This document shows positions 3,301-53,232 of a stretch of DNA of 64,000 nt, in pieces. Below the pieces are notes generated by a model, which had not been told where the DNA came from, made no database searches, and saw nothing but the letters and a program-made list of their open reading frames with translations. A program made the translations under genes and the position numbers. The stretch is taken from NCBI GenBank assembly GCA_017500935.1, contig JAFVXW010000087.1, positions 80,846 to 144,845 on the forward strand, in the 5' to 3' direction. Within the stretch, counting starts at the first letter, position 1; the number at the start of each line of letters is the position of its first letter. The DNA comes from Lachnospiraceae bacterium (GTDB lineage Bacteria; Bacillota; Clostridia; Lachnospirales; Lachnospiraceae).

Positions 3301-3322
3301 GACAGCCGAAGGAGAATGTCAG

Positions 3323-5117: not shown

Positions 5118-5137
5118 TCGGAAAGGTGAGGTCAGTT

Positions 5138-6109
5138 ATGAATCTTTTGATTTTAAGCTGCGGCACAAGAGATAAAGTTGTTCAGTATTTCAAGGAAGCA
5201 TTCGGAGAGGAAGGCAGAGTCATTACCACAGACTGCAATCCCTATGCGCCGGCCCTTTATGAAGGGGACGCGCATTATGTAGTTCCGCGTATGACTGCCC
5301 CCGGATACATTGATGTTGTGTTTGATATCTGTAAAAAAGAGCAGATCACAGGCGTACTGTCCCTGATCGATCCGGAGCTGTCCCTGCTTGCAAAGCACAA
5401 AGAAGACTTTGAAGCTTTGGGCGTTATGGTGATCGGTTCTTCTTATGAACTGTGCGAGAGAACCTTAAATAAATGGGAGATGTACTGCTGGATGAAAGCG
5501 CACGGATACCCCTGTGCGAAATCCTACATTGATCTGGATGCTTTTTTTGCGGATGTAGATGCCGGTATCGTTACTTATCCTGTATTTGTAAAGCCCGCCA
5601 AAGGCAGCGCGAGTATGCAGATATCCAAGGCATATGATAAGGAAATGGTGGAATTTCTGTTTCACCATGGCGAGTTCATGATGATCCAGGAATATATGGA
5701 CGGTCAGGAGCTTGGTGTGGACTGCTATATTGACATGATCAGCAAGGAAGTGGTTTCCATTTTCTCAAAGAAAAAGCTGGTGATGCGTGCCGGAGAAACC
5801 GACAAGGCGCTTTCTTTTGCAGATGAAGAGCTGTTTGCACAGGTGGAAAAATTTGCCGTTGAAAATGGTTTTATCGGTCAGATTGATATCGATATCTTTG
5901 AAAAGGACGGTGTGTATTATTTCTCAGAAGTAAATCCCCGTTTCGGAGGCGGTTATCCGCATGCTTATGTCTGCGGTGCCGATCATATGACATTGATTAA
6001 GAATAATCTTTGTGGTAAGATAAATGAGAAAAAAATCGGCGGTTACGCAGTCAATAAAGTGATGATGAAGTATAATGAAATTATGCTCATGGACGCCGTG
6101 ACCAAATAG
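5138..6109 (+). CDS. ATP-grasp ligase, carbamoyl-phosphate-synthase-like
   Basis: ATP-grasp enzymes activate a carboxylate as an acyl phosphate and join it to an amine or other nucleophile. The 323-residue protein has an N-terminal Rossmann-like segment (MNLLILSCGTRDKVVQYF), a preATP-grasp part, the ATP-binding lysine region YPVFVKPAKGSAS and the metal-binding end SEVNPRFGGGYPHAY. ATG 5138 is preferred because GAAAGGTGAGG lies at 5121-5131; a longer frame from 4997 overlaps the decarboxylase. It begins 20 bases after the decarboxylase and ends eight bases before a GT4, so the two enzymes are probably made together. A two-step route (make an amine, then ligate it to a uronic acid or amino sugar) is plausible but inferred. 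Substrates are unknown. Confidence 0.85.
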   Translation: MNLLILSCGTRDKVVQYFKEAFGEEGRVITTDCNPYAPALYEGDAHYVVPRMTAPGYIDVVFDICKKEQITGVLSLIDPELSLLAKHKEDFEALGVMVIGSSYELCERTLNKWEMYCWMKAHGYPCAKSYIDLDAFFADVDAGIVTYPVFVKPAKGSASMQISKAYDKEMVEFLFHHGEFMMIQEYMDGQELGVDCYIDMISKEVVSIFSKKKLVMRAGETDKALSFADEELFAQVEKFAVENGFIGQIDIDIFEKDGVYYFSEVNPRFGGGYPHAYVCGADHMTLIKNNLCGKINEKKIGGYAVNKVMMKYNEIMLMDAVTK

Positions 6110-7243: not shown

Positions 7244-8560
7244 ATGAGTTTATATGAAAAGATCGTAGCAGGAGAAGAGAAAATCTCTTTAGTTGGTCTG
7301 GGTTATGTTGGTATGCCTATTGCCGTTGCATTTGCAAGAAAGGTTAAGGTTGTAGGCTTTGACTTAAATGAAGCAAAGATCAATCTGTACAAATCCGGCA
7401 TTGATCCCACCAGAGAAGTGGGTGATGATGTGATCAAAACCACCACAGTGGAATTTACCGCTGACCCTGCAAGATTAAAAGAAGCAAAATTCCATATCGT
7501 TGCGGTCCCGACTCCCGTAAACGATGATCATACTCCTGACCTGACTCCTGTGGAAGGTGCCAGCAGACTGCTTGGTCAGAACCTGACCAAGGGCTCCATT
7601 ATTGTATTTGAATCCACCGTATATCCCGGTGTAACCGAAGATGTCTGTGTGCCGATTCTGGAAAAAGAGTCCGGATTAAAATGCGGCGTGGATTTCAAGA
7701 TCGGTTATTCTCCCGAGCGTATCAACCCCGGTGATAAAGTACACCGTCTGGAAACCATCACCAAGATCGTTTCCGGTATGGACGAAGAAACACTGGATGA
7801 AGTGGCAAAGGTTTATGAACTGGTAGTGGATGCTGGTGTATACCGTGCGGATTCCATCAAGGTTGCAGAAGCTGCAAAGGTTATCGAAAACAGCCAGCGC
7901 GACATCAATATCGCATTTATGAACGAGCTTTCCATTATCTTTAACAAGATGGGCATTGATACCAGAAGCGTGCTGGAAGCAGCAGGTACCAAGTGGAATT
8001 TCTTAAAGTTCTTCCCTGGTCTTGTAGGCGGTCACTGCATCGGTGTTGATCCTTATTATCTGACCTATAAGGCGGAACAGATGGGATATCATTCCCAGGT
8101 CATTCTTGCAGGCCGCCGTATCAACGATGATATGGGCAAATATGTTGCTGAAAATGTAGTGAAAAATCTGATCAAGGCTGATGTGGCAGTCAAGACTGCA
8201 AAGGTTGCGATCATGGGCTTTACTTTTAAGGAAAACTGCCCTGATACCAGAAATACCAAGGTTATTGATATTGTGAACGAACTGCGTGAATACGGCATCG
8301 ATCCCGTGATCGTGGATGAAACCGCAGACAGAGCAGAAGCAAAGCATCTTTACGGCATTGAACTGGCTGACCAGAGTGCGGTAAAGGATGTGGATGCACT
8401 GATCATTGCAGTTGCACACGATGAGTTTGGAAATCTGGACAAGGCTGCCATTGATGCATGCTTTAACACTTCCAACACCAAAAAGGTGCTGGTGGATGTA
8501 AAGGGCGTGCAGGACAGAAAGGCATATCTGGGTGAAGAATATATTTACTGGAGATTGTAA
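7244..8560 (+). CDS. UDP-N-acetyl-hexosamine 6-dehydrogenase, WbpO/TviB-like
   Basis: Oxidises C6 of a UDP-HexNAc to the uronic acid with two NAD+. Three domains are visible: N-terminal Rossmann (SLVGLGYVGMPIAVAFARK), central dimerisation helix with the catalytic cysteine in GGHCIGVDPYYLTYKAEQ (about C265), and C-terminal UDP-binding domain (MGFTFKENCPDTRN). The GHCIGVDPYYL-TYKAEQMGYHS-QVILAGRRINDDMG series is the WbpO/TviB/WbpA branch rather than UDP-glucose dehydrogenase. RBS AAGGAGG at 7231-7237 with a six-base spacer is the strongest in this part. Together with the epimerase at 9937 it should give UDP-GalNAcA, as in Vi antigen and P. aeruginosa O6 synthesis. The order of the two steps is unknown. 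Confidence 0.93.
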   Translation: MSLYEKIVAGEEKISLVGLGYVGMPIAVAFARKVKVVGFDLNEAKINLYKSGIDPTREVGDDVIKTTTVEFTADPARLKEAKFHIVAVPTPVNDDHTPDLTPVEGASRLLGQNLTKGSIIVFESTVYPGVTEDVCVPILEKESGLKCGVDFKIGYSPERINPGDKVHRLETITKIVSGMDEETLDEVAKVYELVVDAGVYRADSIKVAEAAKVIENSQRDINIAFMNELSIIFNKMGIDTRSVLEAAGTKWNFLKFFPGLVGGHCIGVDPYYLTYKAEQMGYHSQVILAGRRINDDMGKYVAENVVKNLIKADVAVKTAKVAIMGFTFKENCPDTRNTKVIDIVNELREYGIDPVIVDETADRAEAKHLYGIELADQSAVKDVDALIIAVAHDEFGNLDKAAIDACFNTSNTKKVLVDVKGVQDRKAYLGEEYIYWRL

Positions 8561-8644
8561 TAGCCTGTTTTTCTTTATACATCTCCCGGAATGTCAGTTT
8601 TGTGATAAATATCTGAAAAAATGATTAAGATTCCATGAAGTACA

Positions 8645-8673
8645 TTGTACAGAAAAAGAAAAAAAGATATACT
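8645..8673 (+). promoter_or_regulatory. Candidate sigma-A promoter before the SGNH lipoprotein gene
   Basis: TTGTAC at 8645-8650 and TATACT at 8668-8673 are separated by 17 bases in the 154-base gap after the dehydrogenase gene. The -10 box matches consensus at five of six positions; the -35 box matches only at TTG. It would start transcription about 35 bases before the start codon of the split lipoprotein gene. Confidence 0.35.
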
Positions 8674-8714
8674 CTTTTTGGGATAAATGAACTTTGTGAG
8701 AATTTGGAGGAGTA

Positions 8715-8927
8715 ATGAATATGAAAAACAGATCCGGACTGCTTGTCAGTATTTTGCTGACCGTTTCTGTACTTGCAGGAACCGTATTTGCGGGATGTGC
8801 GCAAGGTACTGATTATACAAAGGAAATTAAAGAATATCAGGAAAAGCTGGAGTCTTTACAGTCAGAAAATGCACAGTTAAAGCAGGAATTGGGAATTGTG
8901 GAGGAAAGCAGCGAGACAGCAGCTTAG
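8715..8927 (+). CDS. N-terminal part of an SGNH lipoprotein gene, cut by an in-frame TAG
   Basis: The 70-residue product has a positively charged start, a hydrophobic core and a lipobox-like end (TVFAGC), then a short coiled-coil region (EIKEYQEKLESLQSENAQLK). It stops at TAG 8925-8927. The same frame continues without a break through an acidic Pro/Glu/Ser-rich linker into the SGNH hydrolase at 8961, so this is the export and anchor part of one ancestral protein of about 388 residues. RBS GGAGG is at 8706-8710; ATG 8721 has a better spacing (ten bases) than ATG 8715 (four). A CAG-to-TAG or GAG-to-TAG change would explain the stop. Alone, this fragment would be only a small lipoprotein. Confidence 0.7.
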   Translation: MNMKNRSGLLVSILLTVSVLAGTVFAGCAQGTDYTKEIKEYQEKLESLQSENAQLKQELGIVEESSETAA

Positions 8928-8960
8928 CCGGAAGAAACCGAAAATGTTCCGGAGGAATCA

Positions 8961-9884
8961 GTGACGGAAGTAGGATCCTCTGCAGAAAAAGAAGGAACGG
9001 AAGCGGCAGAATCCGCAGAAAATGCGAATACTGCGGAATCCGAACAGACAACACAGCTCCAGGAACCTGAAAAAGTGTATCCTGAACCCAAAATACAGAG
9101 TCTCTCCGGTGTGCTTGAGGAAGGGGATGTGACCAATATTTTGGTGTTTGGTGACAGTATCTGGGCAAATGACCGGGATGCGAGCGGTATTGCAGCCAAG
9201 GTGGAAGACTATCTGTATAAGATGGGATATGAAGTAAAGATTTACAATGCTGCTGTGGGCGGAACCCGTGCTTCTATTGATTTTGATGACAATGAGTGGG
9301 AGTATGGTCCTCAAAGTGACAATACACTGGGGAAGATGCTGTCGATCTTAAGCGGCAACACAGATATCGAGCTGATCAACGACCAGCCGGCTTACAGTGT
9401 TATGCAGGAAGTGATGCCGATCACGGAAGAGATTGATGTGGTAATCCTTGCATATGGCATGAATGACTTTTTAAGTCAGGCGGAGAAAAACTGTTCCGAA
9501 AGACACTGGTGCGGTTACGGTACTGCGCTGAGAGAAGGCATTACCGCTTCCAACAGATTATGTCCCAATGCGGATGTCATGCTGATCGCGCCGACCTTTG
9601 CTTCCTATTTCCCGATCGGGGTGCAGAATATGGGTGATAAGGCATTGTTTAACTATGTCAGGGTTGCCAATGATGTTGCAAGAGAATATCATGTGCTGAG
9701 TGCAGACCCCTACAACAACATGGGCGTGGATGTTTACAATGCGGATGATTATATTCTGGACGGGATTCATCTGAATGAATTGGGCAGAGATCTGTATGCC
9801 AGAATGGTGGCCGGTGTGCTCATTTATGGTAAAAAAGGCGAAATCTCCGGCAATGCCCTTCCCTGGGAAGCATTTGAAGAATGA
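8961..9884 (+). CDS. SGNH/GDSL-type hydrolase domain, separated from its signal peptide by a stop codon
   Basis: Esterase-fold domain of the kind that removes or transfers O-acyl groups on glycans. SGNH blocks seen: LVFGDSIWAND (block I serine), GGTRAS (block II glycine), AYGMNDF (block III, G-x-N-D) and DGIHLNELG (block V, D-x-x-H). The first 45 residues are an acidic, low-complexity linker. The GTG at 8961 has a GGAGG at 8951-8955 five bases upstream, so separate translation is possible, but the product would have no signal peptide and would stay in the cytoplasm. Reading through TAG 8925 restores a normal secreted lipoprotein. It may therefore be a recent pseudogene, or its expression may depend on suppression or re-initiation. 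Confidence 0.8.
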   Translation: MTEVGSSAEKEGTEAAESAENANTAESEQTTQLQEPEKVYPEPKIQSLSGVLEEGDVTNILVFGDSIWANDRDASGIAAKVEDYLYKMGYEVKIYNAAVGGTRASIDFDDNEWEYGPQSDNTLGKMLSILSGNTDIELINDQPAYSVMQEVMPITEEIDVVILAYGMNDFLSQAEKNCSERHWCGYGTALREGITASNRLCPNADVMLIAPTFASYFPIGVQNMGDKALFNYVRVANDVAREYHVLSADPYNNMGVDVYNADDYILDGIHLNELGRDLYARMVAGVLIYGKKGEISGNALPWEAFEE

Positions 9885-9936
9885 CCGTGAAGGTACAAAA
9901 AGGTTACGAATTTGACAAGAAAGGAACGGCATCAGA

Positions 9937-10926
9937 TTGCCGGAACAGACAATGGGATATAAAAATCTTGTATTTGACAAAGACAGTGTATTTTTGGTAA
10001 CAGGCGGTGCCGGCTTTATCGGCTCCAACCTGTGTGAGGCAATTTTAGAGCTGGGATACAAAGTCCGCTGCTTAGATGACCTTTCCACCGGCAATATCAA
10101 GCATGTGGAGATGTTTGCGGACAACCCCAACTATACCTTTATCAAGGGAGATATCAAGGATTTTGATACCTGTATGAAAGCCTGCGAAGGTGTTGATTAT
10201 GTGCTGAATCAGGCAGCATGGGGGTCTGTTCCCAGAAGTATCGAGATGCCCATCTTTTATGCACAGAACAATATCGTGGGTACACTGAATATGATGGAAG
10301 CGGCAAGACAGAACGGCGTTAAAAAGTTTGTTTACGCGTCCAGCTCTTCTGTATACGGCGATCACCCTGCACTTCCCAAAAAGGAAGGAGTTGAAGGCAA
10401 CGTGCTTTCTCCTTATGCGCTGACCAAAAAAGTAGATGAAGAATACGGCAGACTTTACAAAAAACTGTATGGACTGGATACCTACGGCATGCGTTATTTC
10501 AACGTATTCGGACGCAGGCAGAATCCCGAGGGCATGTATGCAGCGGTTATTCCGAAGTTTTTAAAACTTCTGTTAAACGGCGAAGTGCCTACCATCAACG
10601 GTGACGGAAAACAGTCCAGAGACTTTACTTATGTGGACAATGTCATTGAGGCAAACTTAAAAGCTTGTCTGGCTCCCAGTGAAGCTGCCGGTGAAGCATA
10701 CAATATCGGTTCCGGCGGCAGAGTTTTCCTGATCGATCTGTACTATGGCATGTGCGATGCCCTGGGCATTAAGGTTGAGCCTGTATTCGGACCTTCCAGA
10801 GCCGGTGATATCCGTGATTCCAATGCGGATATTTCCAAGGCAAGAGAACTGCTGGGATATGATCCTGACTATGATTTTGAAAAGGGAATCAAGCTGGCGA
10901 TTGACTGGTATAAGAATAATCTGTAA
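9937..10926 (+). CDS. UDP-N-acetylglucosamine 4-epimerase, WbpP/TviC-like (extended SDR)
   Basis: Interconverts UDP-GlcNAc and UDP-GalNAc or the matching uronic acids. It has the NAD-binding TGGAGFIGSN, the SPYALTKK segment with the Y-x3-K catalytic pair, and RYFNVFGRRQNPEGMYAAVIPK, a signature of the WbpP group, plus the QAAWGSVPRSIE block near residue 85. Length 325-330 residues is usual. TTG 9937 has an AAGGAA ten bases upstream; ATG 9952 is the alternative. A strong terminator follows the stop. Pairing with the dehydrogenase at 7244 predicts UDP-GalNAcA synthesis. Confidence 0.93.
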   Translation: MPEQTMGYKNLVFDKDSVFLVTGGAGFIGSNLCEAILELGYKVRCLDDLSTGNIKHVEMFADNPNYTFIKGDIKDFDTCMKACEGVDYVLNQAAWGSVPRSIEMPIFYAQNNIVGTLNMMEAARQNGVKKFVYASSSSVYGDHPALPKKEGVEGNVLSPYALTKKVDEEYGRLYKKLYGLDTYGMRYFNVFGRRQNPEGMYAAVIPKFLKLLLNGEVPTINGDGKQSRDFTYVDNVIEANLKACLAPSEAAGEAYNIGSGGRVFLIDLYYGMCDALGIKVEPVFGPSRAGDIRDSNADISKARELLGYDPDYDFEKGIKLAIDWYKNNL

Positions 10927-10931
10927 AATAG

Positions 10932-10973
10932 AGTCGGAGACTGATACTTACATATCGGTTTCCGGCTATTTTT
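10932..10973 (+). terminator. Rho-independent terminator after the epimerase gene
   Basis: Arms at 10932-10945 and 10954-10967 pair over 14 positions with three G-U wobbles and an eight-base loop, followed by T5 at 10969-10973. It begins six bases after the epimerase stop, so the first transcription block probably ends here at least in part. Confidence 0.8.
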
Positions 10974-11052
10974 ATGCGCGCCCGGCGTGATCGGGATTTT
11001 GCCGCTGATACGGCCGCCCCCCCGGCGTGCTCTATATATGGAGGAAATAAGC

Positions 11053-12024
11053 ATGCGTTATGATGTTGTGATTTTCGGCGTGAAAGATATGACTGCCGAT
11101 ATTGTGGAATATATTATGGACAATCAGATCGCCAAAGTGGATCTGGTGGTGACCATCCATCCGGATGTGACGAAGAAAAATCAGGTTTCCGGTTATCAGG
11201 GACTTTCCTGGCTGACTGATAAATACGGGATTGAAGTGTATGAGACCCGTTCCTATGCGTTAAATGATGAGGATACCAAACGCTTTTTTGAAGAAAACGA
11301 ATTTGGTCTGGGTATTTCCATGAGCTGGCAGCGTCTGATCCCGGCAGCAGTGCTGGACAGATTTGAGCACGGTGTATTTGGACTGCACGGCGGACCGGGA
11401 TATCTGCCCTCCGGCAGAGGCCGTTCTCCCTTAAACTGGGCAGTGGTGCGCGGTGATACCCGTTTTATTCTGAATATGTTCCAGTATGATGAAAAGGCAG
11501 ACAGCCCCAATGTGTTTGCAAATGAGATGTTTGCGATCAATCCCCATGATACGATTCGTACTCTGCAGTATAAAAATGTGCTGGTGAGCCGCCGCCTGAT
11601 CACAAAGCTTCTGGAAGCGCATAAGGAAGGAACGATCCGTGTCAGAAGAGATTCCAAAGATTTTGACAGCTGGAACGGCAAACGTACCGCGGCTGACGGT
11701 CTGATGGATTTTCATGCAAGAACCAGAGAACTGTACAATCTGGTGCGCGCGGTGACCAAACCCTTCCCCGGCGCATTCTGCTATGCCGGAAGTCAAAAGG
11801 TGACAGTCTGGAGTGCGCATCCCTTCGATGAAATGCTTGACTTTTCCATGTATGCACCCGGTGAGATCATTGCTGTTATGGACGGAAAGCTGATCGTGCG
11901 TACCCTGGACGGCTCTTTGCTGATCGAAGAGTTTGAGTGCGGAAGTGCGCTTGCCCCCGGTATGATCTTAAGCGGCGAATGTGCTGATGCAGACGGCGGA
12001 CAGGCAGCTGGCAGGGAGGCTTGA
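11053..12024 (+). CDS. Formyltransferase-fold enzyme, probable sugar N-formyltransferase
   Basis: Belongs to the methionyl-tRNA formyltransferase / sugar N-formyltransferase superfamily, which moves a formyl group from N10-formyl-tetrahydrofolate to an amine. The core motif is LHGGPGYLPSGRGRSPLNW: the catalytic His is present (about H112) and a matching Asp lies 38 residues later in EKADSPNV (about D150), but the usual Asn two residues before His is Gly (G110). A C-terminal Fmt-like beta domain begins near residue 235. ATG 11053 is preserved by GGAGG at 11040-11044 with an eight-base spacer; a longer frame from 10987 would run through a GC-rich spacer. A deacetylase follows with almost no gap, so removal of an acetyl group and re-acylation with formyl on the same amino sugar is a reasonable inference. 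Confidence 0.82.
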   Translation: MRYDVVIFGVKDMTADIVEYIMDNQIAKVDLVVTIHPDVTKKNQVSGYQGLSWLTDKYGIEVYETRSYALNDEDTKRFFEENEFGLGISMSWQRLIPAAVLDRFEHGVFGLHGGPGYLPSGRGRSPLNWAVVRGDTRFILNMFQYDEKADSPNVFANEMFAINPHDTIRTLQYKNVLVSRRLITKLLEAHKEGTIRVRRDSKDFDSWNGKRTAADGLMDFHARTRELYNLVRAVTKPFPGAFCYAGSQKVTVWSAHPFDEMLDFSMYAPGEIIAVMDGKLIVRTLDGSLLIEEFECGSALAPGMILSGECADADGGQAAGREA

Positions 12025-12029
12025 TCAGG

Positions 12030-12779
12030 ATGAAGATCACCGTAAGAATGGACGATATCACGCCGGATATGGACTGGAAAAGCTTTGATGCCTTCGTGGA
12101 AATGTTCTGCAAATATGGAATCAAACCGCTTTTGGGGATCGTGCCCTGTAACCGTGATCCCAAACTTGCCCTCGATGCACCTGATCCGACTTTTTATGAA
12201 AAAATGAAGGCATTGCAGAAAGATGGGTATTGCCTTGCCATGCATGGCTGTTATCATGTTTACGAAACCAAAAAAGGCGGCTGTTTTCCCTTAAATCCCA
12301 AGTCTGAGTTTGCTGGAAGAAGTTATGAAAAGCAGCGGGAGCTTTTGCAGACCGGAAAAGCATATCTGGAAGAAAACGGTATTTACACAGATATTTTCAT
12401 GGCACCCGGTCACACGCTGGACAAAAATACGGTAAAAGTGCTCAAAGAGCTTGGATTTTGCTATATTACAGACGGCTACGGAAAAGCACCTTACAAACGC
12501 CGGGGGATGACCTGGCTGCCCATTTCGTTTCTGCAGCGTTTTCTGTTTTCAGAGAGGGAAGGAACGGCGACGCTGGTACTCCATGTCAACAACAGTACCC
12601 AAAAAGAGCTGGAAGACTATGATAAAATGTTTGCGCAGTATCAGGGAAACTTTATTCCCTATTCTGCGTTGTTAGAGATGGAAGCAAAGCAGCAGAATCC
12701 GGCTGCGAGGCTGGCAGAGTATGGCATGGCTTTAGGGAAACAGTGGGCTGCAAGGCTTTTGCGGGCGTTGAGACACTGA
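12030..12779 (+). CDS. Polysaccharide deacetylase-like protein, DUF2334/NodB fold
   Basis: Probable metal-dependent N-deacetylase acting on an amino sugar in the cytoplasm; no signal peptide or membrane helix is visible. Motifs: VRMDDITPDMDW (catalytic and metal Asp), AMHGCYHVY (H-G-x2-H metal ligand pair) and IFMAPGHTLD. About 249 residues. ATG 12030 is ten bases after GGGAGG at 12014-12019; TTG 12021 would overlap the formyltransferase stop and sits too close to the ribosome binding site. Directly behind a sugar formyltransferase, it could expose the amine that is then formylated. It could also act on a nucleotide sugar or a lipid-linked intermediate; sequence does not decide this. Confidence 0.8.
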   Translation: MKITVRMDDITPDMDWKSFDAFVEMFCKYGIKPLLGIVPCNRDPKLALDAPDPTFYEKMKALQKDGYCLAMHGCYHVYETKKGGCFPLNPKSEFAGRSYEKQRELLQTGKAYLEENGIYTDIFMAPGHTLDKNTVKVLKELGFCYITDGYGKAPYKRRGMTWLPISFLQRFLFSEREGTATLVLHVNNSTQKELEDYDKMFAQYQGNFIPYSALLEMEAKQQNPAARLAEYGMALGKQWAARLLRALRH

Positions 12780-12828
12780 CTGCCGTATCAATTGCCGTAT
12801 CCATGCAAAATGATGAGGAGTATAGCAT

Positions 12829-13965
12829 ATGAAAGAACCAATCCGTGTACTGCATGTTCTGGGCGGTACCAATCTGGGCGGTGCAGAAAGCAGAGTGATG
12901 GATCTGTACCGTCATATTGACAGGGAACGCATCCAGTTTGATTTTGCGGTGCACACACAGGAAAAAGGCTTTTTTGACGAAGAGATCAAGAAGCTGGGCG
13001 GCAGAATTTATCCGCTGCCCAGATTTAAAGTATATAACTGGCTTTCCTACCAAAAAGCGTGGAAGCAGTTTTTGAAAGAACATCCGGGTTATGCAGCGGT
13101 GCATGGACATATGACCAGCACGGCATCGATTTATCTGCCGACAGCCAAAAAAAGCGGCGTGCCGATCACGGTTGCCCATGCCAGAAGCGCGGGGACCGAT
13201 GCCGGCATCAAAGGGCTTCTGACCCGTCTGATCCGGAAAAATCTGTGGAAACAGACGGATTACTGTTTTGCCTGCTCTGCTTTGGCGGGAGAAGCGGTAT
13301 ATGGAAAAACGGCGTGTGCGCAGGAGCTGGTGCATGTGATCCCCAATGCCATCACATTGGAAAAATATGCCTATGATCCCAACATGCGGGAGCAGATGCG
13401 TCAGGAATGGCAGCTGCAGGACAAGCTGGTGATCGGTCATGTGGGACGTTTCCATGCGGCAAAAAATCACGGATTTTTACTGGAAGTGTTTGCGGAAATA
13501 AAAAAACTGCGGCAGGATGCCGTTTTGTTTTTGGTGGGCGAAGGCGAAGGCATGGAAGCGGCAAAACAGAAGGCATCGGAGCTTGGAATTATGCAGGATG
13601 TGGTTTTTGCCGGTAAAAAAACCAATGTATCGGACTATTATCAGATGTTTGACGTGCTTTTATTCCCCTCTTTGTATGAAGGAATGCCGGGAACCGTTCT
13701 GGAAGCGCAGGCGGCAGGTCTGTCCTGCCTGATCTCTGATACCATCACGCCGGAGGCCGGTGTGACAGAGCTGGTGGAATATAAGAATCTGCAGGATGGT
13801 GCGCAGAAATGGGCAGAGAGTCTGCTGACACTTCTGCAAAAAAATACAGCAGAACGCACCGGACGTCTGCAGGCACTCAGAGCAGCAGGCTTTGATGTGA
13901 GCGATCAGGCTGTGAAGATGATGAATTTTTATGAAAAAGGTGACGAAAGCTTGTTTTCGTCGTAA
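12829..13965 (+). CDS. Glycosyltransferase family 4, EpsF-like
   Basis: GT-B retaining glycosyltransferase. N-terminal VLHVLGGTNLGGAESRVMDLYR is the EpsF-type acceptor-domain start; the donor domain begins near LVIGHVGRFHAAKNHGFLL and ends with the E-x7-E motif YEGMPGTVLEAQ. 378 residues, normal. ATG 12829 follows GAGGAG at 12815-12820. A nine-base direct repeat (TGCCGTATC) lies just upstream in the 49-base gap. The next GT4 starts 11 bases after its stop. Donor and acceptor sugars are unknown. Confidence 0.9.
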   Translation: MKEPIRVLHVLGGTNLGGAESRVMDLYRHIDRERIQFDFAVHTQEKGFFDEEIKKLGGRIYPLPRFKVYNWLSYQKAWKQFLKEHPGYAAVHGHMTSTASIYLPTAKKSGVPITVAHARSAGTDAGIKGLLTRLIRKNLWKQTDYCFACSALAGEAVYGKTACAQELVHVIPNAITLEKYAYDPNMREQMRQEWQLQDKLVIGHVGRFHAAKNHGFLLEVFAEIKKLRQDAVLFLVGEGEGMEAAKQKASELGIMQDVVFAGKKTNVSDYYQMFDVLLFPSLYEGMPGTVLEAQAAGLSCLISDTITPEAGVTELVEYKNLQDGAQKWAESLLTLLQKNTAERTGRLQALRAAGFDVSDQAVKMMNFYEKGDESLFSS

Positions 13966-13976
13966 GGAGAAGCTGT

Positions 13977-15137
13977 ATGAGCAAAAAGAAGCTGCTTTTG
14001 GTGGTGCCCATGCTGCATCAGGGCGGATTTGAGCGTGTGTGTGTACGGACGGCCCGGATCATGGAACCCTGGTTTGAGGTGACCATTGCCATGTTTTCCG
14101 ATGCGGATATTGCATATGATATCACGGGACTTTCCGTGATTAATCTGGATGTTCCTGCCAAAGACGGAAAAATCAATAAGCTTTTGAATGTGGCAAAGCG
14201 GATCGTGCGGCTGGCAGCCTTAAAAAGAAGGATAAAGCCGGATATTACTTACAGCTTTGGCCCCACTGCCAATCTGATCAATGTACTGACTCCGGTGGGC
14301 GGACAGATCTGGACAGGCGTGCGCAGCTGGATGGATATGGATATGCCCGGAATGCTGAAGCTTTTCTGCAAAGGTTCCGATAAAGTGATCTGCTGCTCCG
14401 AAGTGATCGCGGCAGAGATGAAAAAGTTATTCGGCGCGCAGAACACAGAGGTGCTTTATAACCCCTATGACTGCCGTGCAATGGAAGAAATGGCGCAGCA
14501 GCCTGTGGCGGATATGCCTGATTTTTCCGGACAGAAGATGATGATCAGCGTGGGACGCGAGGATGATGTGAAGGAGTTCTGGCATCTGATCAAATGTCTG
14601 TATCTGATGAAGGATGCGGTTCCGGAAGCTTCTCTTTGTATTGTGGGCGAAGGTACCTTTGAAGAATATAAAAAGCTGGCAGGAGAGCTTGGAATTGCTG
14701 ACAGAATATGCTTTGCGGGCCTGCAGAAAAATCCCTTTGCCTGGATGAAAAAAGCGCAGCTTTGTGTAGGTACCTCTGCGATGGAAGGTTTTCCGAATGC
14801 ATTGGTTGAGTGTATGGCCTGCGGTGTCGGTGCCGTGTTTGCCAACTGTATGAGCGGCCCGGCAGAAATTTTGTCTGACCGGTTTGCAGAAGTGGTTGGA
14901 AAGCAGGAAGTGCTGGAAGAAGCCTACGGGATTCTGATTCCTGTTATGGATGATAAGAAAAATCTGGATCCGGCGGTGTTTACGGAGGAAGAGAAAAAAC
15001 TGGCGGAACTGCTGACAGCACTTTTGACAGACAGTGTGCATCTTAAGAAGCTTGCGCAGGCGGCAAAGGTTCGCGCTGCTCACTTTTCTGATGAAGCCTA
15101 TGCGCAGACGATTCTGCGGATTGCGGACGGAAAGTGA
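13977..15137 (+). CDS. Glycosyltransferase family 4
   Basis: GT-B glycosyltransferase with the N-terminal glycine-rich start VVPMLHQGGFERVCVRTARI, donor-domain start near MMISVGREDDVKEFWHLI and MEGFPNALVECMACG as the E-x7-E motif. 386 residues. AAGGAGAAG lies just before ATG 13977. It follows another GT4 by 11 bases, and a perfect 7-bp hairpin sits six bases after the stop. The acceptor-domain sequence differs clearly from that of the neighbour at 12829, so the two should act on different sugars, but specificity cannot be read from sequence. Confidence 0.88.
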   Translation: MSKKKLLLVVPMLHQGGFERVCVRTARIMEPWFEVTIAMFSDADIAYDITGLSVINLDVPAKDGKINKLLNVAKRIVRLAALKRRIKPDITYSFGPTANLINVLTPVGGQIWTGVRSWMDMDMPGMLKLFCKGSDKVICCSEVIAAEMKKLFGAQNTEVLYNPYDCRAMEEMAQQPVADMPDFSGQKMMISVGREDDVKEFWHLIKCLYLMKDAVPEASLCIVGEGTFEEYKKLAGELGIADRICFAGLQKNPFAWMKKAQLCVGTSAMEGFPNALVECMACGVGAVFANCMSGPAEILSDRFAEVVGKQEVLEEAYGILIPVMDDKKNLDPAVFTEEEKKLAELLTALLTDSVHLKKLAQAAKVRAAHFSDEAYAQTILRIADGK

Positions 15138-15142
15138 TTTAC

Positions 15143-15160
15143 AGTCCGGAATGCCGGACT
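15143..15160 (+). terminator. Short perfect hairpin after a GT4 gene
   Basis: Seven-base arms AGTCCGG and CCGGACT flank the loop AATG directly after the stop at 15137. No T tract follows, so it is a weak terminator at best, or an mRNA 3'-end or processing structure. Confidence 0.4.
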
Positions 15161-15188
15161 TGCCACAAAATTGCCAATATGTTAAAGT
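15160..15188 (+). promoter_or_regulatory. Candidate promoter for the 15256 operon
   Basis: TTGCCA (15160-15165) and TAAAGT (15183-15188) are 17 bases apart. The -35 matches five of six positions and the -10 four of six. It lies in a 118-base gap directly behind the hairpin at 15143-15160, so one transcript could end and another begin here. Confidence 0.35.
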
Positions 15189-15255
15189 AATATGTAAACA
15201 TTCGCGGCAGCACAGTTTCTGCCTGTGATGTTAAGAAATACACCTGGAGTAAAAT

Positions 15256-16362
15256 ATGCGAAAAATAGCATTTCATTTAAATTGCCTGGAGCAGGGCGGC
15301 GCAGAGCGCGTGGTGACCAATCTGGCGCATCAGTTTGCACAGGAAGGCTACGAAGTCATTGTTGCCACCGAATGGAAAGCAGAAAATGAATTTGTGCTGG
15401 ATGAGAGGGTACGCCGCGAGATCGTCGGTCCTAAGGAAAGTGATGAAAACAAGTCCAGAATTGCGAAGATTATTCTGCGGTTTGCGTATCTGCGGGAATT
15501 TATCAAAAAAGAAAAGCCGGATGTGCTGATCGCTTTTGGACAGAAAGCCAATTACAGGGCGCTGATTTCCTCTCTTTTTACCAGACAAAAGACCATTGTC
15601 TGTGTGCGAACGGACCCGGTGGGACATTATGACGGACTGGCGGACAAAATCCAGATTCCGCTTTTGTTTCCCACAGCCGACGGCTTTGTGTTTCAGACGG
15701 AAGGACAAAGGGATTTCTTCCCGGCCTGTGCCAGAAAGCACAGCAGGATCATTTTGAACCCGATTCATGAAAAATACATCAAAGCAGAGAAAAAGCCCCC
15801 TGTGCGCAGGGAGGTTGTGCAGAGCGGAAGACTTGTCGATTTTAAGAATCAGCCCATGCTGATCCGGGCATTTCTGCGGGTACATGAAAAGCATCCGGAT
15901 TATGTGCTTAAAATTTACGGACCGGATTCTTTTGACGGAACAAAAGAGATTCTGGAGAATCTGATTCAGGAAAGAAACGCGCAGGACTGCGTCTTTTTAT
16001 GCGGCGGCAGCGACAAACTGGAGCAGGAGATGCCCGGTGCGGCATTATATGCGTTTTCCTCTGACTGGGAAGGGCTTCCCAATGCGCTTTTGGAAGCGAT
16101 GGCTTTGGGAATGCCGGTGGTGGCAACGGACTGTCCCTGCGGCGGACCTAAGACTGTGATCGAACATGAAAAGAACGGGCTTTTGGTGCCGATCAAGGAT
16201 GAGGATGCCATGGCAGCAGGCATTCAGCGTCTGATCGAGGACAGGGAACTTGCCTGCAGACTGGGAGAAGAAGCTGCTAAGATCGGAGAGATTGCCAACG
16301 GACAGGCAATCTTTGAACAGTGGCGTGAATATATCGAAGACGTGATCGCAGGAAGAGGCTGA
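15256..16362 (+). CDS. Glycosyltransferase family 4
   Basis: GT-B glycosyltransferase. IAFHLNCLEQGGAERVVTNLA is the glycine-rich acceptor-domain start typical of WbpH/EpsD-like GT4s; REVVQSGRLVDFKNQPMLI opens the donor domain, and WEGLPNALLEAMALGMPVV holds the E-x7-E motif, followed by TDCPCGGPKTVIE. The same TDCPCGGPK block occurs in the GT4 at 19117, which suggests paralogues. 368 residues, complete. CTGGAG at 15244-15249 serves as ribosome binding site. Confidence 0.9.
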   Translation: MRKIAFHLNCLEQGGAERVVTNLAHQFAQEGYEVIVATEWKAENEFVLDERVRREIVGPKESDENKSRIAKIILRFAYLREFIKKEKPDVLIAFGQKANYRALISSLFTRQKTIVCVRTDPVGHYDGLADKIQIPLLFPTADGFVFQTEGQRDFFPACARKHSRIILNPIHEKYIKAEKKPPVRREVVQSGRLVDFKNQPMLIRAFLRVHEKHPDYVLKIYGPDSFDGTKEILENLIQERNAQDCVFLCGGSDKLEQEMPGAALYAFSSDWEGLPNALLEAMALGMPVVATDCPCGGPKTVIEHEKNGLLVPIKDEDAMAAGIQRLIEDRELACRLGEEAAKIGEIANGQAIFEQWREYIEDVIAGRG

Positions 16363-16387
16363 CAGCCGGCCTGCAGATCCTATTACT

Positions 16388-17176
16388 ATGGAGAAACAAA
16401 CAATGTTTTCATTTGACGATTACAGAGAAATTATAAAAATTATCAAAGAAAGCGGCAATGCCTGCCATTATGAGGAGGCGCTGCACAGAGAGAAATTTGT
16501 CATCATGCGCCATGACGTGGAATACAGCGTGGACAGAGCCTATGAACTGTCCAAAGTGGAAAGTGAGATGGATTTTACTTCCAACTGGTTTTTCCAGTGG
16601 ACCAACAATTCTTACAATATCCTTTCCCGCCGCAGTCAGGCCATGATCAATGATATGCATGAGCGCGGTCATGTGATCGGTCTGCATTTTGCCTTAAACG
16701 GCCTGACCGACATGAAGCAGGTGCGCCGTCAGATCGTAAAGGAAATGCGCATTCTTTCCAATATGTTTGATTTTGAGATCACCCAGTTTTCCGTGCACAG
16801 ACCCTCTGCGGCGGTGCTGGCTGAAAATATCAAGCTTCCCAACGTGATCAATGCCTATCAGGATGAATTTTTTACCTTTGCACCGGAAATCACAGAGGAA
16901 ACCAAGCTGAAGGTAAAATATCTGTCCGATGCAAACCATATCTGGCGCTACGGCTATCCTGACAGAGAAAACATTTTAAACCATGACAAGGTGCAGATTC
17001 TGACCCATCCTTTTGCATGGTGTGAAAAGGGCTATGACAACAGGGACAACTATGCTTCCCTGATCAAGGAAAAATATGCGGAAATGATCGAAAGCATTGA
17101 CGGCGAGTGCAAGGACTTTGGCGTATACAGACAGGAGTTTATGGGCGCAAAGCTGATCGATGAAAAGGAGAAGTAA
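16388..17176 (+). CDS. NodB-fold polysaccharide deacetylase-like protein
   Basis: Cytoplasmic protein with deacetylase-fold landmarks: FVIMRHDVEYSVDRAYEL near residue 40 (H-D pair), HVIGLHFALNG (metal-ligand type His) near residue 97, SVHRPSA, and ILTHPFAW near residue 205. 262 residues, no signal peptide. It differs from the DUF2334 protein at 12030 and is not its copy. It is three bases away from the AsnB-like gene that follows, a coupling that would fit successive modification of one sugar (N-deacetylation and C6 amidation). The catalytic base arrangement is only partly canonical, so an inactive or altered role cannot be excluded. Confidence 0.75.
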   Translation: MEKQTMFSFDDYREIIKIIKESGNACHYEEALHREKFVIMRHDVEYSVDRAYELSKVESEMDFTSNWFFQWTNNSYNILSRRSQAMINDMHERGHVIGLHFALNGLTDMKQVRRQIVKEMRILSNMFDFEITQFSVHRPSAAVLAENIKLPNVINAYQDEFFTFAPEITEETKLKVKYLSDANHIWRYGYPDRENILNHDKVQILTHPFAWCEKGYDNRDNYASLIKEKYAEMIESIDGECKDFGVYRQEFMGAKLIDEKEK

Positions 17177-17179
17177 TTT

Positions 17180-19063
17180 ATGTGCGGTATCTGCGGTTTT
17201 ATCTCCAAAAGAGAAATCTCGCATGAACAACTGAAGATCATGAATGACACCATGTATCACAGAGGCCCCGATGACCACGGAGAGGAAATCTTTGCGTGGC
17301 AGGATGGTTATGCTCTGGGACTGGCGCAGCGCAGACTCTCCATTCAGGATCTGTCACCGCTGGGACATCAGCCCATGCATGCAGCCGGCGGCCGCGTCAG
17401 CGTGGTGTTTAACGGTGAGATCTACAACTTTCTGGAACTGCGCAAAGAGCTTTCCGACTATCCTTTCAAGTCGGGCAGTGATACGGAGGTTATTCTTGCG
17501 GCCTATTTAAAATGGGGCATTTCCTGTGTGGAACGGTTCCGCGGTATGTTTGCCATTGCACTGGCCGACAGAGAAAGCGGCAAGGTCTATCTGGTGCGTG
17601 ACCGCATCGGCAAAAAGCCGCTGTATTACTGGGCAGAAAATGGTCATCTTGTGTTTGCATCCGAATTAAAGCCGATTCTTACCTGTCCCGGTTTTGAAAA
17701 ACAGATCCGTCAGGACGTGATTTCCCGCTATCTGTATCAGCTGTGCATCAATGCGCCTGATACGATCTTTAAGAATGTTTACAAGCTGGAGCCCGGTGCG
17801 GTGCTGACCTGGGAGCAGGGACAGATCACCACAAAAAAATACTGGGATATCAAGGAGATTTATCATAAAATGAGTGCGGACCCTGTAAAGGATTACGGCC
17901 AGGCGAAGCACGAACTCAAAGAGCTTCTGAAAAAATCCGTGGCAGAGCGTATGATCGCGGATGTGCCGCTGGGTACTTTTTTAAGCGGCGGCTATGATTC
18001 CTCGCTGGTTACTGCGATTGCGCAGGAGCATGCCAGTGAGCCGGTGAAGACTTTTTCCATCGGTTTTCATGAAGAACGCTATAATGAGGCAAAATATGCC
18101 AGACAGGTATCCGAATATCTGGGAACCTGTCATACAGAGCATTATATTGATGAAAATGATATGTTTGCGCTGGTGGAAAGCATTCCTCATTATTATGACG
18201 AACCTTTTGCAGACAGCTCCCAGATTCCTTCCATGCTGGTGGCAGCACTGGCCAAAAAGGATGTGACGGTGGTGCTTTCCGGTGACGGCGGCGATGAATT
18301 TTTCTGCGGCTATAATATTTATAAGGATGTGGCATTGGCACAGCTTCTGGATATCCCCGGCGCACTGGTGCATGGAATCTGCAGTCTGCCGGGCTTAAAA
18401 CAGGCGGATCTTCTGAATAAACTGCCCTTTAAAGTCAGACTGATCGCACAAAACAGAGATATAAATACCAAAACACAGTTCGGTGCGGATAATTATGTGA
18501 TCCGGGCGCAGAAAATGGTGATCGGAACGGATCATGATTTAAGCTGTCATTATCCGGTTGAACAGAAATATGAAGTGGACAACTGGCAGGTGCGCCGTAT
18601 GCTTCTGGATATGGACAACTATCTGCCGGCAGATATTCTCTGCAAGGTGGACCGCGCAACCATGAAATACTCACTGGAAGCAAGATGTCCGATCCTTGAC
18701 CGGGATGTGATGGAATATTCCTTCCGCCTTCCCCATGAATTCAAATATTACAAAGGTGATAAAAAGCATATCCTCAAGGATATCGCCTATGATTACATCC
18801 CCAGGGAACTGCTTGACAGACCAAAAGTCGGTTTTGGCGTACCGCTGGATAAGTGGATGCGAGGCCCGCTCAAAGAACAGCTGATGGACTACAGTAATGT
18901 GGATTTTCTGAAAAAACAGGGGATTTTTGATGCGGACTATGTACACGACATGCTGACGGAGTACCTAAGGACCGGCGACGGCGGACCGGCAACGGGGGCC
19001 AATTATTCCAAGCTGGCATGGCCTTTCTATGTGTTCCAGCAGTGGTATCAGTATTACATGTGA
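17180..19063 (+). CDS. AsnB-like glutamine-dependent amidotransferase (first copy)
   Basis: Family of glutamine-hydrolysing asparagine synthetases; in glycan loci WbpS-type members are thought to convert a uronic acid to its carboxamide. The N-terminal Cys is in place (MCGICGF), followed by YHRGPDDHGEE, VFNGEIYNFLEL and SGSDTEVILAAY of the glutaminase domain (about residues 1-190). The synthetase domain has the ATP loop FLSGGYDSSLV near residue 268, LSGDGGDEFFCGYN and EARCPILDRDVMEYSF. 627 residues. AAGGAG at 17165-17170 gives a nine-base spacer. The GalNAcA-forming pair at 7244 and 9937 supplies a fitting substrate. A true asparagine synthetase cannot be excluded, but a second paralogue at 23285 and the context argue for glycan modification. 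Confidence 0.88.
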   Translation: MCGICGFISKREISHEQLKIMNDTMYHRGPDDHGEEIFAWQDGYALGLAQRRLSIQDLSPLGHQPMHAAGGRVSVVFNGEIYNFLELRKELSDYPFKSGSDTEVILAAYLKWGISCVERFRGMFAIALADRESGKVYLVRDRIGKKPLYYWAENGHLVFASELKPILTCPGFEKQIRQDVISRYLYQLCINAPDTIFKNVYKLEPGAVLTWEQGQITTKKYWDIKEIYHKMSADPVKDYGQAKHELKELLKKSVAERMIADVPLGTFLSGGYDSSLVTAIAQEHASEPVKTFSIGFHEERYNEAKYARQVSEYLGTCHTEHYIDENDMFALVESIPHYYDEPFADSSQIPSMLVAALAKKDVTVVLSGDGGDEFFCGYNIYKDVALAQLLDIPGALVHGICSLPGLKQADLLNKLPFKVRLIAQNRDINTKTQFGADNYVIRAQKMVIGTDHDLSCHYPVEQKYEVDNWQVRRMLLDMDNYLPADILCKVDRATMKYSLEARCPILDRDVMEYSFRLPHEFKYYKGDKKHILKDIAYDYIPRELLDRPKVGFGVPLDKWMRGPLKEQLMDYSNVDFLKKQGIFDADYVHDMLTEYLRTGDGGPATGANYSKLAWPFYVFQQWYQYYM

Positions 19064-20563: not shown

Positions 20564-22051
20564 GTGGCTATTACTTCGTTCTGGTTCCTGTGCTTTTTCG
20601 GGATCGCACTGATCCTGTATTATGTGATTCCCAGAAAGCTGCAGTGGGTTTTATTGCTGCTTCTGGGCAGCGCTTACTTTCTGACTTCCACGGAGGTGGC
20701 AGACAGCGGCGCGTGGTATGTATGTTTTTATCCGCTTGTATCGGTAGGCGCGGTCTGGCTGGCGGCGAGAGTGATTGACAGGGCAAAAGAGCAGAAGAAA
20801 AAGAAAGCTGCTCTTATTTGTGCTGTCGTTTTCTGCGTTTTGCTGTTATGTTCATTAAAGTTCTGGAAGCTGCCTTTGTATGCGCCGATGGGGATCGCGT
20901 TTTATACGCTGACCCTTTTGGGGTATTTGTTTGATGTCTATTATGAGATTGGTCCGGTGCAGAACAATTATGCAAAGCTTTTATTGTTTGGCTGTTATTT
21001 CCCGACCCTGATCTCCGGACCTATCACTAAATACAGAGAATTAAAGGATTCTTTGTACGGACAGCACAGATTTGACTACCGACAGATCGCGTTTGGCATG
21101 CAGCGTATGCTCTGGGGCTTTTTTAAAAAGCTTGTGATCGCAGAGCGCATGGCGCTGATCGCCAATGAAGTGTTTGACAACTATACGCAGTACAGCGGTT
21201 TTGCTGTCTGGATGGGCGCGATCGCCTTTACCTTCCAGCTTTACACAGACTTTGACGGCTGTATGGATATCGTGCTGGGTATTTCACAGTGTTTTGGAAT
21301 TAAACTGCCGGAGAATTTCAATGCGCCTTTTTTGGCAAAAAGCATACAGGAATTCTGGCAGAGATGGCATATGACGCTGGGAACCTGGCTGAGAGAATAT
21401 CTGTTTTATCCGCTGCTGCGCACGAAGTTTTTCATGGCGCTTCCCAAGCGGTTAAAAGAAAAATGCGGCAAGAAAAAGGCAAAGCAGATCACCACATTTT
21501 CCGCCATGTTTATTCTGTGGGCGGTGGTCGGTTACTGGCACGGCGGCGGCATGACCTTTGTGATCGGTTCCGGTCTTTTACACTGGTTTTACATTGTTTC
21601 CGGTGAACTTTTGGAGCCTGTTTTCAAAAAAATGCGCACAGCACTGCATATCAAAGCAGAGCAGAAATTGTTTATCTGTTTTCAGCAGTTCAGAACTTTC
21701 CTGCTGGTGACGCTTGGTTTTGTGTTTTTCAGAAGTCCCTCCGTTGCAGATGCCTTTCAGTATCTGGGACGGGGACTGCGCGGTTACAGCCTGAGCTTCT
21801 TTACAAAAGGGGAACTGTTTGGGTTGGGACTTGACTGGATCGAACTGGGTGTGGCTGTGGTGTCGCTGATCATTTTCTTTGCAGTGACCAATCTGACGCA
21901 GAAGGGCAGTATGTATGAATGGCTGGAAAAGCGGCCTGTTTTGGTTCGCTGGGCGATTTTGTATGCGCTGCTGTTTTATGTGATTTTACTTGGCAAATAC
22001 GGACCGGATTTTTCCGCTTCCGAGTTTATTTATCAGAATTTTAAGGTTTAA
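20564..22051 (+). CDS. MBOAT-family membrane O-acyltransferase, DltB/AlgI-like (first copy)
   Basis: Polytopic membrane protein (about eleven hydrophobic segments) that moves an acyl group across or along the membrane to a glycan. The diagnostic block is FLAKSIQEFWQRWHMTLGTWLREYLFYPL, and the essential histidine is in VVGYWHGGGMTFV (about H326). 495 residues, full length. Start is GTG 20564 with AGGAAGGA upstream. Directly behind the acyl carrier protein and ahead of a membrane-anchored SGNH-like protein, it should accept the acyl group from the carrier. A short hairpin with T4 follows its stop. Confidence 0.92.
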   Translation: MAITSFWFLCFFGIALILYYVIPRKLQWVLLLLLGSAYFLTSTEVADSGAWYVCFYPLVSVGAVWLAARVIDRAKEQKKKKAALICAVVFCVLLLCSLKFWKLPLYAPMGIAFYTLTLLGYLFDVYYEIGPVQNNYAKLLLFGCYFPTLISGPITKYRELKDSLYGQHRFDYRQIAFGMQRMLWGFFKKLVIAERMALIANEVFDNYTQYSGFAVWMGAIAFTFQLYTDFDGCMDIVLGISQCFGIKLPENFNAPFLAKSIQEFWQRWHMTLGTWLREYLFYPLLRTKFFMALPKRLKEKCGKKKAKQITTFSAMFILWAVVGYWHGGGMTFVIGSGLLHWFYIVSGELLEPVFKKMRTALHIKAEQKLFICFQQFRTFLLVTLGFVFFRSPSVADAFQYLGRGLRGYSLSFFTKGELFGLGLDWIELGVAVVSLIIFFAVTNLTQKGSMYEWLEKRPVLVRWAILYALLFYVILLGKYGPDFSASEFIYQNFKV

Positions 22052-22052
22052 G

Positions 22053-22076
22053 AAGCCGACAGGCTGTCGGACTTTT
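22053..22076 (+). terminator. Weak intra-operon terminator-like hairpin
   Basis: CCGACA (22056-22061) and TGTCGG (22065-22070) pair around a GGC loop, with AAG/CTT extending the stem over a bulged A and a T4 run at 22073-22076. The next gene starts only 14 bases later, so it may reduce rather than stop readthrough. Confidence 0.45.
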
Positions 22077-22089
22077 GATGTGAGGAACT

Positions 22090-23163: not shown

Positions 23164-23284
23164 GCTGGGACGATGGGCGCAAAAGTGCGCAGGTGCGGTG
23201 GCAGCACGGTAAGCTGATGGCAGCAGGCGGCAGTGATCAGGCGATGCGTGCCGGGAGTGACAGAAAGAAAGGAGGCGGATGCAG

Positions 23285-37219: not shown

Positions 37220-37287
37220 GGTAATAGCGTAGTTGCGTTACCGTTACGTGTTAAGTACAAAAGATCAAAAAGTTGGGGTTATCGATT

Positions 37288-44556: not shown

Positions 44557-44577
44557 TATACGGAAATGAGGAAAGAT

Positions 44578-51649: not shown

Positions 51650-51696
51650 ACGGTATCAGGAATTTTTAACTTGATAATGAAGAAAAAACAGAGTTA

Positions 51697-51705
51697 TGTT
51701 ATACT
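51697..51705 (+). promoter_or_regulatory. Candidate extended -10 promoter for the second MBOAT gene
   Basis: TGTTATACT (TG-n-TATACT) at 51697-51705 is an extended -10 element, 32 bases before the ATG at 51738. No good -35 is present (the nearest TTGATA lies 23 bases upstream of the -10). The divergent promoter at 51621 lies in the same intergenic region. Confidence 0.4.
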
Positions 51706-51737
51706 TAGAAAAAATGAGATATAGGGACGGATTATAT

Positions 51738-53225: not shown

Positions 53226-53232
53226 GGTAATT

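Follow-up and report, generated by a model that had tools for sequence, protein, structure and literature searches.

Which surface sugar would be made by a gene set that combines a uronic acid pathway with a formyltransferase, deacetylases, and amidotransferases? The question is raised by a 64-kb glycan locus of a Lachnospiraceae bacterium (the window, by which we mean the whole stretch of DNA that was analyzed), which comes from contig 76 of a genome of 3.56 Mb, 95% complete and 5.7% contaminated. Glycan genes make up the majority of the window open reading frames (ORFs) scanned. A first-pass annotation of this DNA had read six of them as a pathway to an N-formylated, C6-amidated galactosaminuronic acid, and all six are indeed found at the positions given. 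Our main finding is that the formyltransferase-like protein (FT) has a strict partner across the family, the CE4-fold protein g16. The genes, the folds and domains of their products, the landmark residues, and the FT-g16 coupling are what we observe, and the residue that we tentatively predict from them is a formylated, possibly amidated galactosaminuronic acid. The genes concerned are the following.

7244 to 8560, plus strand: g8, a TviB/WbpO-type uridine diphosphate (UDP)-N-acetylhexosamine (HexNAc) 6-dehydrogenase with the catalytic Cys motif GGHCIGVDPYYL, which would convert UDP-N-acetylglucosamine (UDP-GlcNAc) to the uronic acid UDP-GlcNAcA.
9937 to 10926 (first ATG at 9952), plus strand: g10, a TviC/WbpP-type C4-epimerase, which would convert UDP-GlcNAcA to UDP-N-acetylgalactosaminuronic acid (UDP-GalNAcA).
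11053 to 12024, plus strand: g11 (FT), a formyltransferase-like protein with Gly for the catalytic Asn and with the His and Asp retained.
12030 to 12779, plus strand: g12, a DUF2334 (PF10096) deacetylase-like protein that tracks the epimerase and not FT.
12829 to 16362, plus strand: g13 to g15, three GT4 glycosyltransferases in the interval between g12 and g16, retained in the FT-negative loci L122, L124, and L125.
16388 to 17176, plus strand: g16, a deacetylase-like protein of CE4/NodB fold and strict partner to FT, as judged by co-occurrence, fold, and motifs.
17180 to 19063, plus strand: g17 (AsnB1), a glutamine-dependent amidotransferase in a clade of its own among family members.
23279 to 25162, plus strand: g21 (AsnB2), a second amidotransferase, WbpS-like and nearer to the P. 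aeruginosa wbp-type AsnB.

The coupling of FT and g16 was established in a family sample of 299 genomes, one per genus. Orthologues were called at E < 1e-130 for FT, at least 56% identity for g16, and E-value cut-offs of 1e-90, 1e-150, and 1e-15 for the epimerase, AsnB1, and DUF2334, respectively. Excluded from the counts were 16 less significant formyltransferase matches (E 1e-20 to 1e-34) and three g16 matches at 29-32% identity (G184, G273, and G280); scored as present were the g16 match of G003, which contains one internal TAA, and the epimerase of G259, a fragment at a contig end. FT has an orthologue in 11 of the 299 genomes. Both genes occur in 10 genomes, FT alone in one, g16 alone in none, and neither in 288 (Fisher p=8e-18), so that the association of a deacetylase-fold protein with the formyltransferase, part of the first-pass annotation, is upheld (10/11 FT-positive and 0/288 FT-negative genomes). 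The lone FT is in G137, which is 81% complete and has FT on a 9.9-kb contig. The epimerase was found in 33 genomes, and among these carriers g16 accompanies FT in 9/10 and is present in 0/23 without FT (Fisher p=2.6e-7). It should be noted that the Fisher tests treat genera as independent, ignoring relatedness, and the p values are therefore too small. Across 398 genomes of the phylum no FT orthologue was found except that of the window, the next match being at E 9e-34. Eisenbergiella tayi DSM 26961 (L010), which is in culture, carries the FT gene.

The other deacetylase-like protein, g12, has the motifs RMDD, HGCYH, and MAPGH. It is the first of the two deacetylases in the first-pass annotation. 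DUF2334 is found in 24 of the family genomes, 23 of them with the epimerase, and is about as common in FT-negative as in FT-positive epimerase carriers (15/23 versus 8/10, p=0.68). We therefore reject it as the partner of FT; that partner is g16. AsnB1 is found in 18 of the 299 genomes, 17 of which have the epimerase, and in those lacking FT it always occurs with the epimerase (9/9); among the epimerase carriers it is present in 8/10 with FT and 9/23 without (p=0.057). From these co-occurrence counts it follows that the gene sets are nested, with the uronic acid genes outermost, amidation and DUF2334 within them, and the FT-g16 pair innermost.

Gene order leads to the same partner. The conserved order is PglF-DegT-PglC-ATP-grasp-GT4-dehydrogenase-epimerase-FT-DUF2334-GT4-GT4, then GT4-g16-AsnB1-GT4 and AsnB2, and it varies by genome. 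Three relatives, L122 (G264), L124 (G196), and L125 (G207), keep the dehydrogenase-epimerase-DUF2334-three GT4-AsnB1 order and are without FT and g16; even at E 1 there is no FT match in their epimerase-DUF2334 slot and no g16 match in the slot before AsnB1. L124 has about 1.4 kb more than the window between DUF2334 and the next GT4, and a weak FT-like match in another FT-negative locus, L123 (27% over 88 residues, E 0.002), was not counted. In the window FT and g16 are 4.4 kb apart. Across 16 loci g16 adjoins AsnB1 in 11 and FT in two (G290 and G087); at the remaining sites it is one gene from FT (G190), on another contig (G041), or before a GT4 gene (L018). Since the position of g16 varies in this way, its pairing with FT is more than adjacency and outlives rearrangement.

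Of nineteen FT loci from named genomes, 61-87% identical, 18 contain the epimerase, 17 have DUF2334, and 15 have the dehydrogenase; where the dehydrogenase or the epimerase is missing, its place is at a contig end, L016 stops just past FT, and L018 has 8 kb downstream of FT without DUF2334. These stretches extend no more than 8 kb from FT, and g16 was seen in 6/19 and AsnB1 in 5/19; in L003 (G003) and L013 (G107) both were found farther along. On a tree of the dehydrogenase and epimerase (45 rows, L005 and L008 without the dehydrogenase and L090 without the epimerase), FT changes six times (four to six in bootstraps), only two of the changes being forced by well-supported branches, and for the most part DUF2334 and AsnB1 do not follow it. 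The trees leave out L027-L029, L082, and L083 as duplicates of L013, L003, and the window.

The dehydrogenase g8 has three UDPG_MGDP_dh domains in addition to its Cys motif. TviB is its best NCBIfam model, at 465.9 bits, below the equivalog cut-off of 592, and so we infer the kind of substrate; a search of PDB sequences with g8 at E 1e-60 gave no match. The epimerase g10 belongs to the epimerase fold family, with YxxxK at residue 160 and the WbpP/WbgU group as its nearest solved structures. TviC is its best model, at 294 bits, below the equivalog cut-off of 760, and g10 is predicted to act on UDP-GlcNAcA. The part of the first-pass annotation that stands is thus a UDP-HexNAc enzyme pair accompanied by amidotransferases; the pair would make UDP-GalNAcA.

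The window encodes two amidotransferases, and the first-pass annotation had listed one, AsnB1, as the WbpS-class enzyme beside the pair. AsnB1 does accompany the epimerase, but the overlooked AsnB2 is nearer to WbpS. In both proteins the glutaminase Cys directly follows the initiator Met (in the AsnB2 ORF as called, MCG is at residue 3), and both have a pyrophosphate (PPi) loop and an Asn_synthase domain. The best model for both is TIGR03108, at 509.3 bits for AsnB1 and 459.4 for AsnB2, below the curated cut-off of 816.9, and both pass the cut-off of the asparagine synthase model TIGR01536. AsnB2 groups with the AsnB of L147, a wbp-type cluster of P. aeruginosa, and with three others (99/97), apart from the Priestia and Subdoligranulum AsnB; AsnB1 is a sister clade (97/91), and the outgroup branches of this tree are long. 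We thus reject AsnB1 as the WbpS counterpart, as AsnB2 is closer to the wbp-type AsnB (43.7% versus 36.7% identity). A housekeeping asparagine synthetase is likewise a disfavored assignment for AsnB1, given that AsnA is encoded elsewhere and that AsnB1 tracks the epimerase, yet it does pass the TIGR01536 cut-off. The two are the only full-length AsnB-like proteins of the genome, and at least one AsnB-like match (E 1e-30) is present in 9 of the 10 other FT-positive genomes, the miss being G137. Two amidotransferases suggest two amidated uronic residues.

We now put forward a hypothetical pathway, to which we give slightly less than an even chance. The module would sit within an undecaprenyl-linked surface-glycan locus. 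Oxidation of UDP-GlcNAc by g8 and epimerization by g10 would give UDP-GalNAcA, g16 would remove the N-acetyl group, FT would place a formyl group on the freed amine, and AsnB1, AsnB2, or both would convert uronic carboxylates to primary amides. Such a pathway would yield 2-formamido-galacturonic acid (GalNFmA) or the corresponding amide (GalNFmAN). From the sequences we infer the substrates, the order of the steps, the nucleotide-, lipid-, or glycan-linked stage at which they would take place, and the persistence of the formyl group in the product.

Several observations weigh against this pathway, and those on the two central enzymes concern catalysis. The first-pass annotation of a sugar formyltransferase is correct as to domains, in that FT passes the cut-offs of both Formyl_trans_N (38.6 bits, cut-off 26.1) and Formyl_trans_C (59.7 bits, cut-off 21.1), and it does not hold as to the canonical catalytic Asn, which is replaced. 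Aligned to ArnA, whose Asn-His-Asp we take to be the catalytic residues and used as the reference triad, FT has Gly-His-Asp in 28/28 members of its clade, and formyl transfer is for this reason not assured. The alignment comprised 69 sequences, the 28 clade members and the 41 best FT matches from two samples, which is not a random set; L073 was left out because of an apparently wrong reading frame, and L045 yielded no match. Gly is found in 40 and Asn in 29, on opposite sides of one split (92 in the Shimodaira-Hasegawa-like approximate likelihood ratio test, SH-aLRT), and the window's clade carries a two-residue insertion in the catalytic loop. There is no variation at the His and Asp, and the C-terminal domain is retained. 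The Gly form also occurs in 12 other Bacillota sequences (L038-L040, L055, L056, L058, L060, L061, L064, L066, L067, and L078), so that Gly-His-Asp formyltransferase-like proteins appear to be a wider subfamily, and such strict conservation speaks for a function. The nearest solved relatives of FT are ArnA domains; a PDB search found no close relative of the Gly-His-Asp clade, and a literature search on the mechanism found nothing relevant. The structure model of FT is mediocre (predicted local distance difference test score, pLDDT, of 69), and we therefore draw no structural argument on the Asn-to-Gly change.

The CE4-type fold of g16 was identified by structure search, and here too there are points on the unfavorable side: the first row returned by Foldseek is a CE4 pseudoenzyme, the template modeling (TM) scores against the query are modest (0.3-0.44 over the first 22 rows), and g16 is without a plain HxxxH, having H100 followed by N104. 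RHDVE and GLH are retained and other His residues (H137 and H207) are conserved, the usual metal site of CE4 deacetylases being Asp-His-His with HxxxH. A PDB sequence search for g16 relatives gave nothing useful. The remaining unfavorable points come from distribution. On the tree g16 changes with FT in both well-supported changes, a sample (n=2) that cannot reach significance (sign test p=0.5). The FT-positive genome G087 (L090) has FT, g16, and AsnB1 and no epimerase match at E 1e-60, from which it follows that GalNAcA is not always the substrate; a GlcNAcA version of the pathway may exist there. G290 has FT and g16 with no AsnB1 orthologue, only the AsnB2 type, and in L018 g16 has no AsnB1 as a neighbor.

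The first sugar and the start of the glycan would be provided by the following genes.

6 to 1592, plus strand: g1, a PglF-like UDP-GlcNAc 4,6-dehydratase of the first-sugar module.
2170 to 3300, plus strand: g3, a DegT-family sugar aminotransferase of the first-sugar module.
3275 to 3949, plus strand: g4, a PglC-like phosphoglycosyl transferase, which would start the glycan on the lipid.
4997 to 6109, plus strand: g6, a PylC-like ATP-grasp ligase, a candidate N-acylating enzyme of the first sugar, with PglB2 as precedent.

At 3876 to 6109, beside PglC, a diaminopimelate-decarboxylase-like pyridoxal phosphate (PLP) enzyme adjoins the PylC-like ligase, and the PLP gene is present also in the relatives L130 and L139. 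The two may make an unusual acyl group and attach it to the first sugar.

The alternative that survives best, and which we consider unlikely, is that FT and g16 modify another amino sugar, either the PglF/DegT 4-amino-trideoxy sugar or a HexNAc, and that the uronamide is a separate residue. Such an arrangement is described for Francisella, where the formyl group is on 4-amino-4,6-dideoxyglucose (Qui4N, giving Qui4NFm) and the amide on GalNAcA (giving GalNAcAN; PMC10924466). DegT and PglF are in the same gene cluster as FT, and no ATP-grasp match is near FT in G041, G087, G190, and G233, where the 4-amine may thus be free. However, an ATP-grasp able to take the 4-amine, one reminiscent of PglB2, which makes a glyceramido sugar in Neisseria (PMC11130364), is present in 17 of the 21 FT-positive loci that cover the place upstream of the dehydrogenase. 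The FT-negative relatives L122 and L124 retain DegT and the ATP-grasp, and a deacetylase, such as accompanies FT, would not be required for a 4-amine that arises by transamination.

Transient formylation, as in the Arn modification of lipid A, is somewhat less likely than this, though still one of the main rivals. FT would formylate an amino sugar before its transfer to lipid and g16, like ArnD, would deformylate it, leaving a free amine. ArnA and ArnD belong to the 4-amino-4-deoxyarabinose (Ara4N) pathway, whose final product is unformylated, unlike the residue predicted here. The pair of FT with a CE4-fold protein does resemble ArnA/ArnD, and ArnD is among the fold matches of g16, but it is tied with many CE4 deacetylases, and no ArnD is recovered when sequences are searched with a g16 profile at E 1. 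The ATP-grasp in FT-positive loci, moreover, leaves no obvious free amine unless deacetylation exposes one. Distant relatives of g16 (23-30%) are held by nine plasmid records, three of which, from Sphingomonas, Azospirillum, and Haloprofundus, were examined. In two of the three loci the relative is near N-acyl-modifying genes, adjoining N-acyltransferase and acetamidino genes in Sphingomonas and ATP-grasp and WbqC-type genes in Azospirillum; the Haloprofundus context is less clear, and there is no FT match at E 1 in any of the three. These contexts fit a deacetylase that prepares re-acylation.

Least probable of the alternatives is that the Gly-His-Asp protein is not a formyltransferase and catalyzes some other folate-dependent or acyl-transfer reaction, or serves as a partner without catalytic activity, which the one-sided Asn-to-Gly change, the loop insertion, and the want of a close solved structure would favor, and which the invariant His and Asp and the retained C-terminal domain oppose, mere decay being unlikely given the 12 other Gly-form sequences.

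Returning to the proposed route to GalNFmA(N), its chemistry has precedents in other bacteria, while the gene combination and the odd formyltransferase look new. The backbone sugars of the Bordetella wbm loci differ from those predicted here, and the likeness to wbm is by description, not sequence. That likeness lies in the formyltransferase and asparagine synthase genes of one wbm locus (PMC12243275). The P. aeruginosa O6 repeat is reported to contain GalNAcA and GalNFmA (PMC4773840), and the reference list of PMC7555982 includes a title concerned with how far 2-formamido-galacturonic acid is amidated in P. aeruginosa O4 and related strains. In chemical terms the predicted sugar is therefore no novelty. 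The comparison with O6 proposed by the first-pass annotation was made with one wbp-type cluster used in place of O6, that of L147, on P. aeruginosa plasmid pPALO11 (tviB, tviC, a flippase, asnB, a short-chain dehydrogenase/reductase, and others). It held for the dehydrogenase (53%), the epimerase (51%), and the amidotransferase (AsnB2, 44%) only, there being no relative of FT, g16, or DUF2334 in its 13.8 kb at E up to 0.1. The L147 cluster, apparently for a wbp-type O antigen, also contains an IS1595-like element.

A similar logic is found in the Wbp/Vim system of Porphyromonas and Tannerella, in which VimE (a putative CE4 enzyme) deacetylates C2, VimA re-acylates it, and WbpS amidates the uronic acid (PMC7468200). 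The combination of deacetylation, re-acylation, and amidation is shared with the proposed route; the acyl group there is serine or glycine on a 2,3-diamino uronic acid, in contrast to an FT-like protein and a WbpO/WbpP-type route here. HexNAcA is amidated by WbpS, and in the N-glycan of Helicobacter pullorum WbpO and WbpS give HexNAcAN (PMC6025236). This system also combines a Pgl-type start with WbpO and WbpS, but no formylation is reported for it, 'formyl' being absent from the main text of the paper. In the Francisella wbt system, WbtJ formylates Qui4N, and a formyl sugar is likewise combined with GalNAcAN (PMC10924466), but the formyl acceptor is an aminotransferase product and the available portion of the source describes no deacetylase step. 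Among the papers listed by our literature searches there was no published formylated uronamide in a Gram-positive, and no chemical data on the glycan of the window came to light. A more specific proposal, that a CE4-fold N-deacetylase and a Gly-His-Asp formyltransferase form a family-restricted, Asn-independent acetyl-to-formyl exchange cassette that makes formylated uronamides from GalNAcA-type residues of the surface glycan by a route unlike those characterized, is possible but on the doubtful side.

To our knowledge, little is known chemically of the surface glycans of gut Lachnospiraceae, and our analysis offers a concrete predicted structure for one of them, the genes for which are found in 11 of the 299 genera sampled. 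It also gives a pointer to how the 2-N-formyl uronic acids of Pseudomonas O antigens could be made, and it raises an enzymological question, that of a formyltransferase subfamily which has lost the presumed catalytic Asn. The surface charge would depend on two amidotransferases together with a deacetylase/formyltransferase pair, and this may bear on recognition by phages, antibodies, and host lectins.

Other genes of the window are of separate interest. A protein with a YbaK-type aminoacyl-tRNA editing domain (PF04073) is encoded within the glycan cluster at 1589-2149. Two MBOAT acyltransferase genes lie in the intervals 20564-23163 and 51696-54558; the gene after each has no Pfam match, and these may be O-acylation pairs. 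A GH88-family unsaturated uronyl hydrolase-like gene lies at 37273-38811 in this biosynthetic locus, with relatives about 30% identical in L086, L108, and L115. In a 631-residue protein at 39853-41748 a GT4 glycosyltransferase comes after a WecG/TagA-type domain, and a Radical SAM/SPASM protein is encoded among glycosyltransferases at 44566-45591. The GC content of the window, 0.40-0.49, drops to 0.33-0.40 beyond about 40 kb (roughly 40000-64000), which suggests a mosaic locus.

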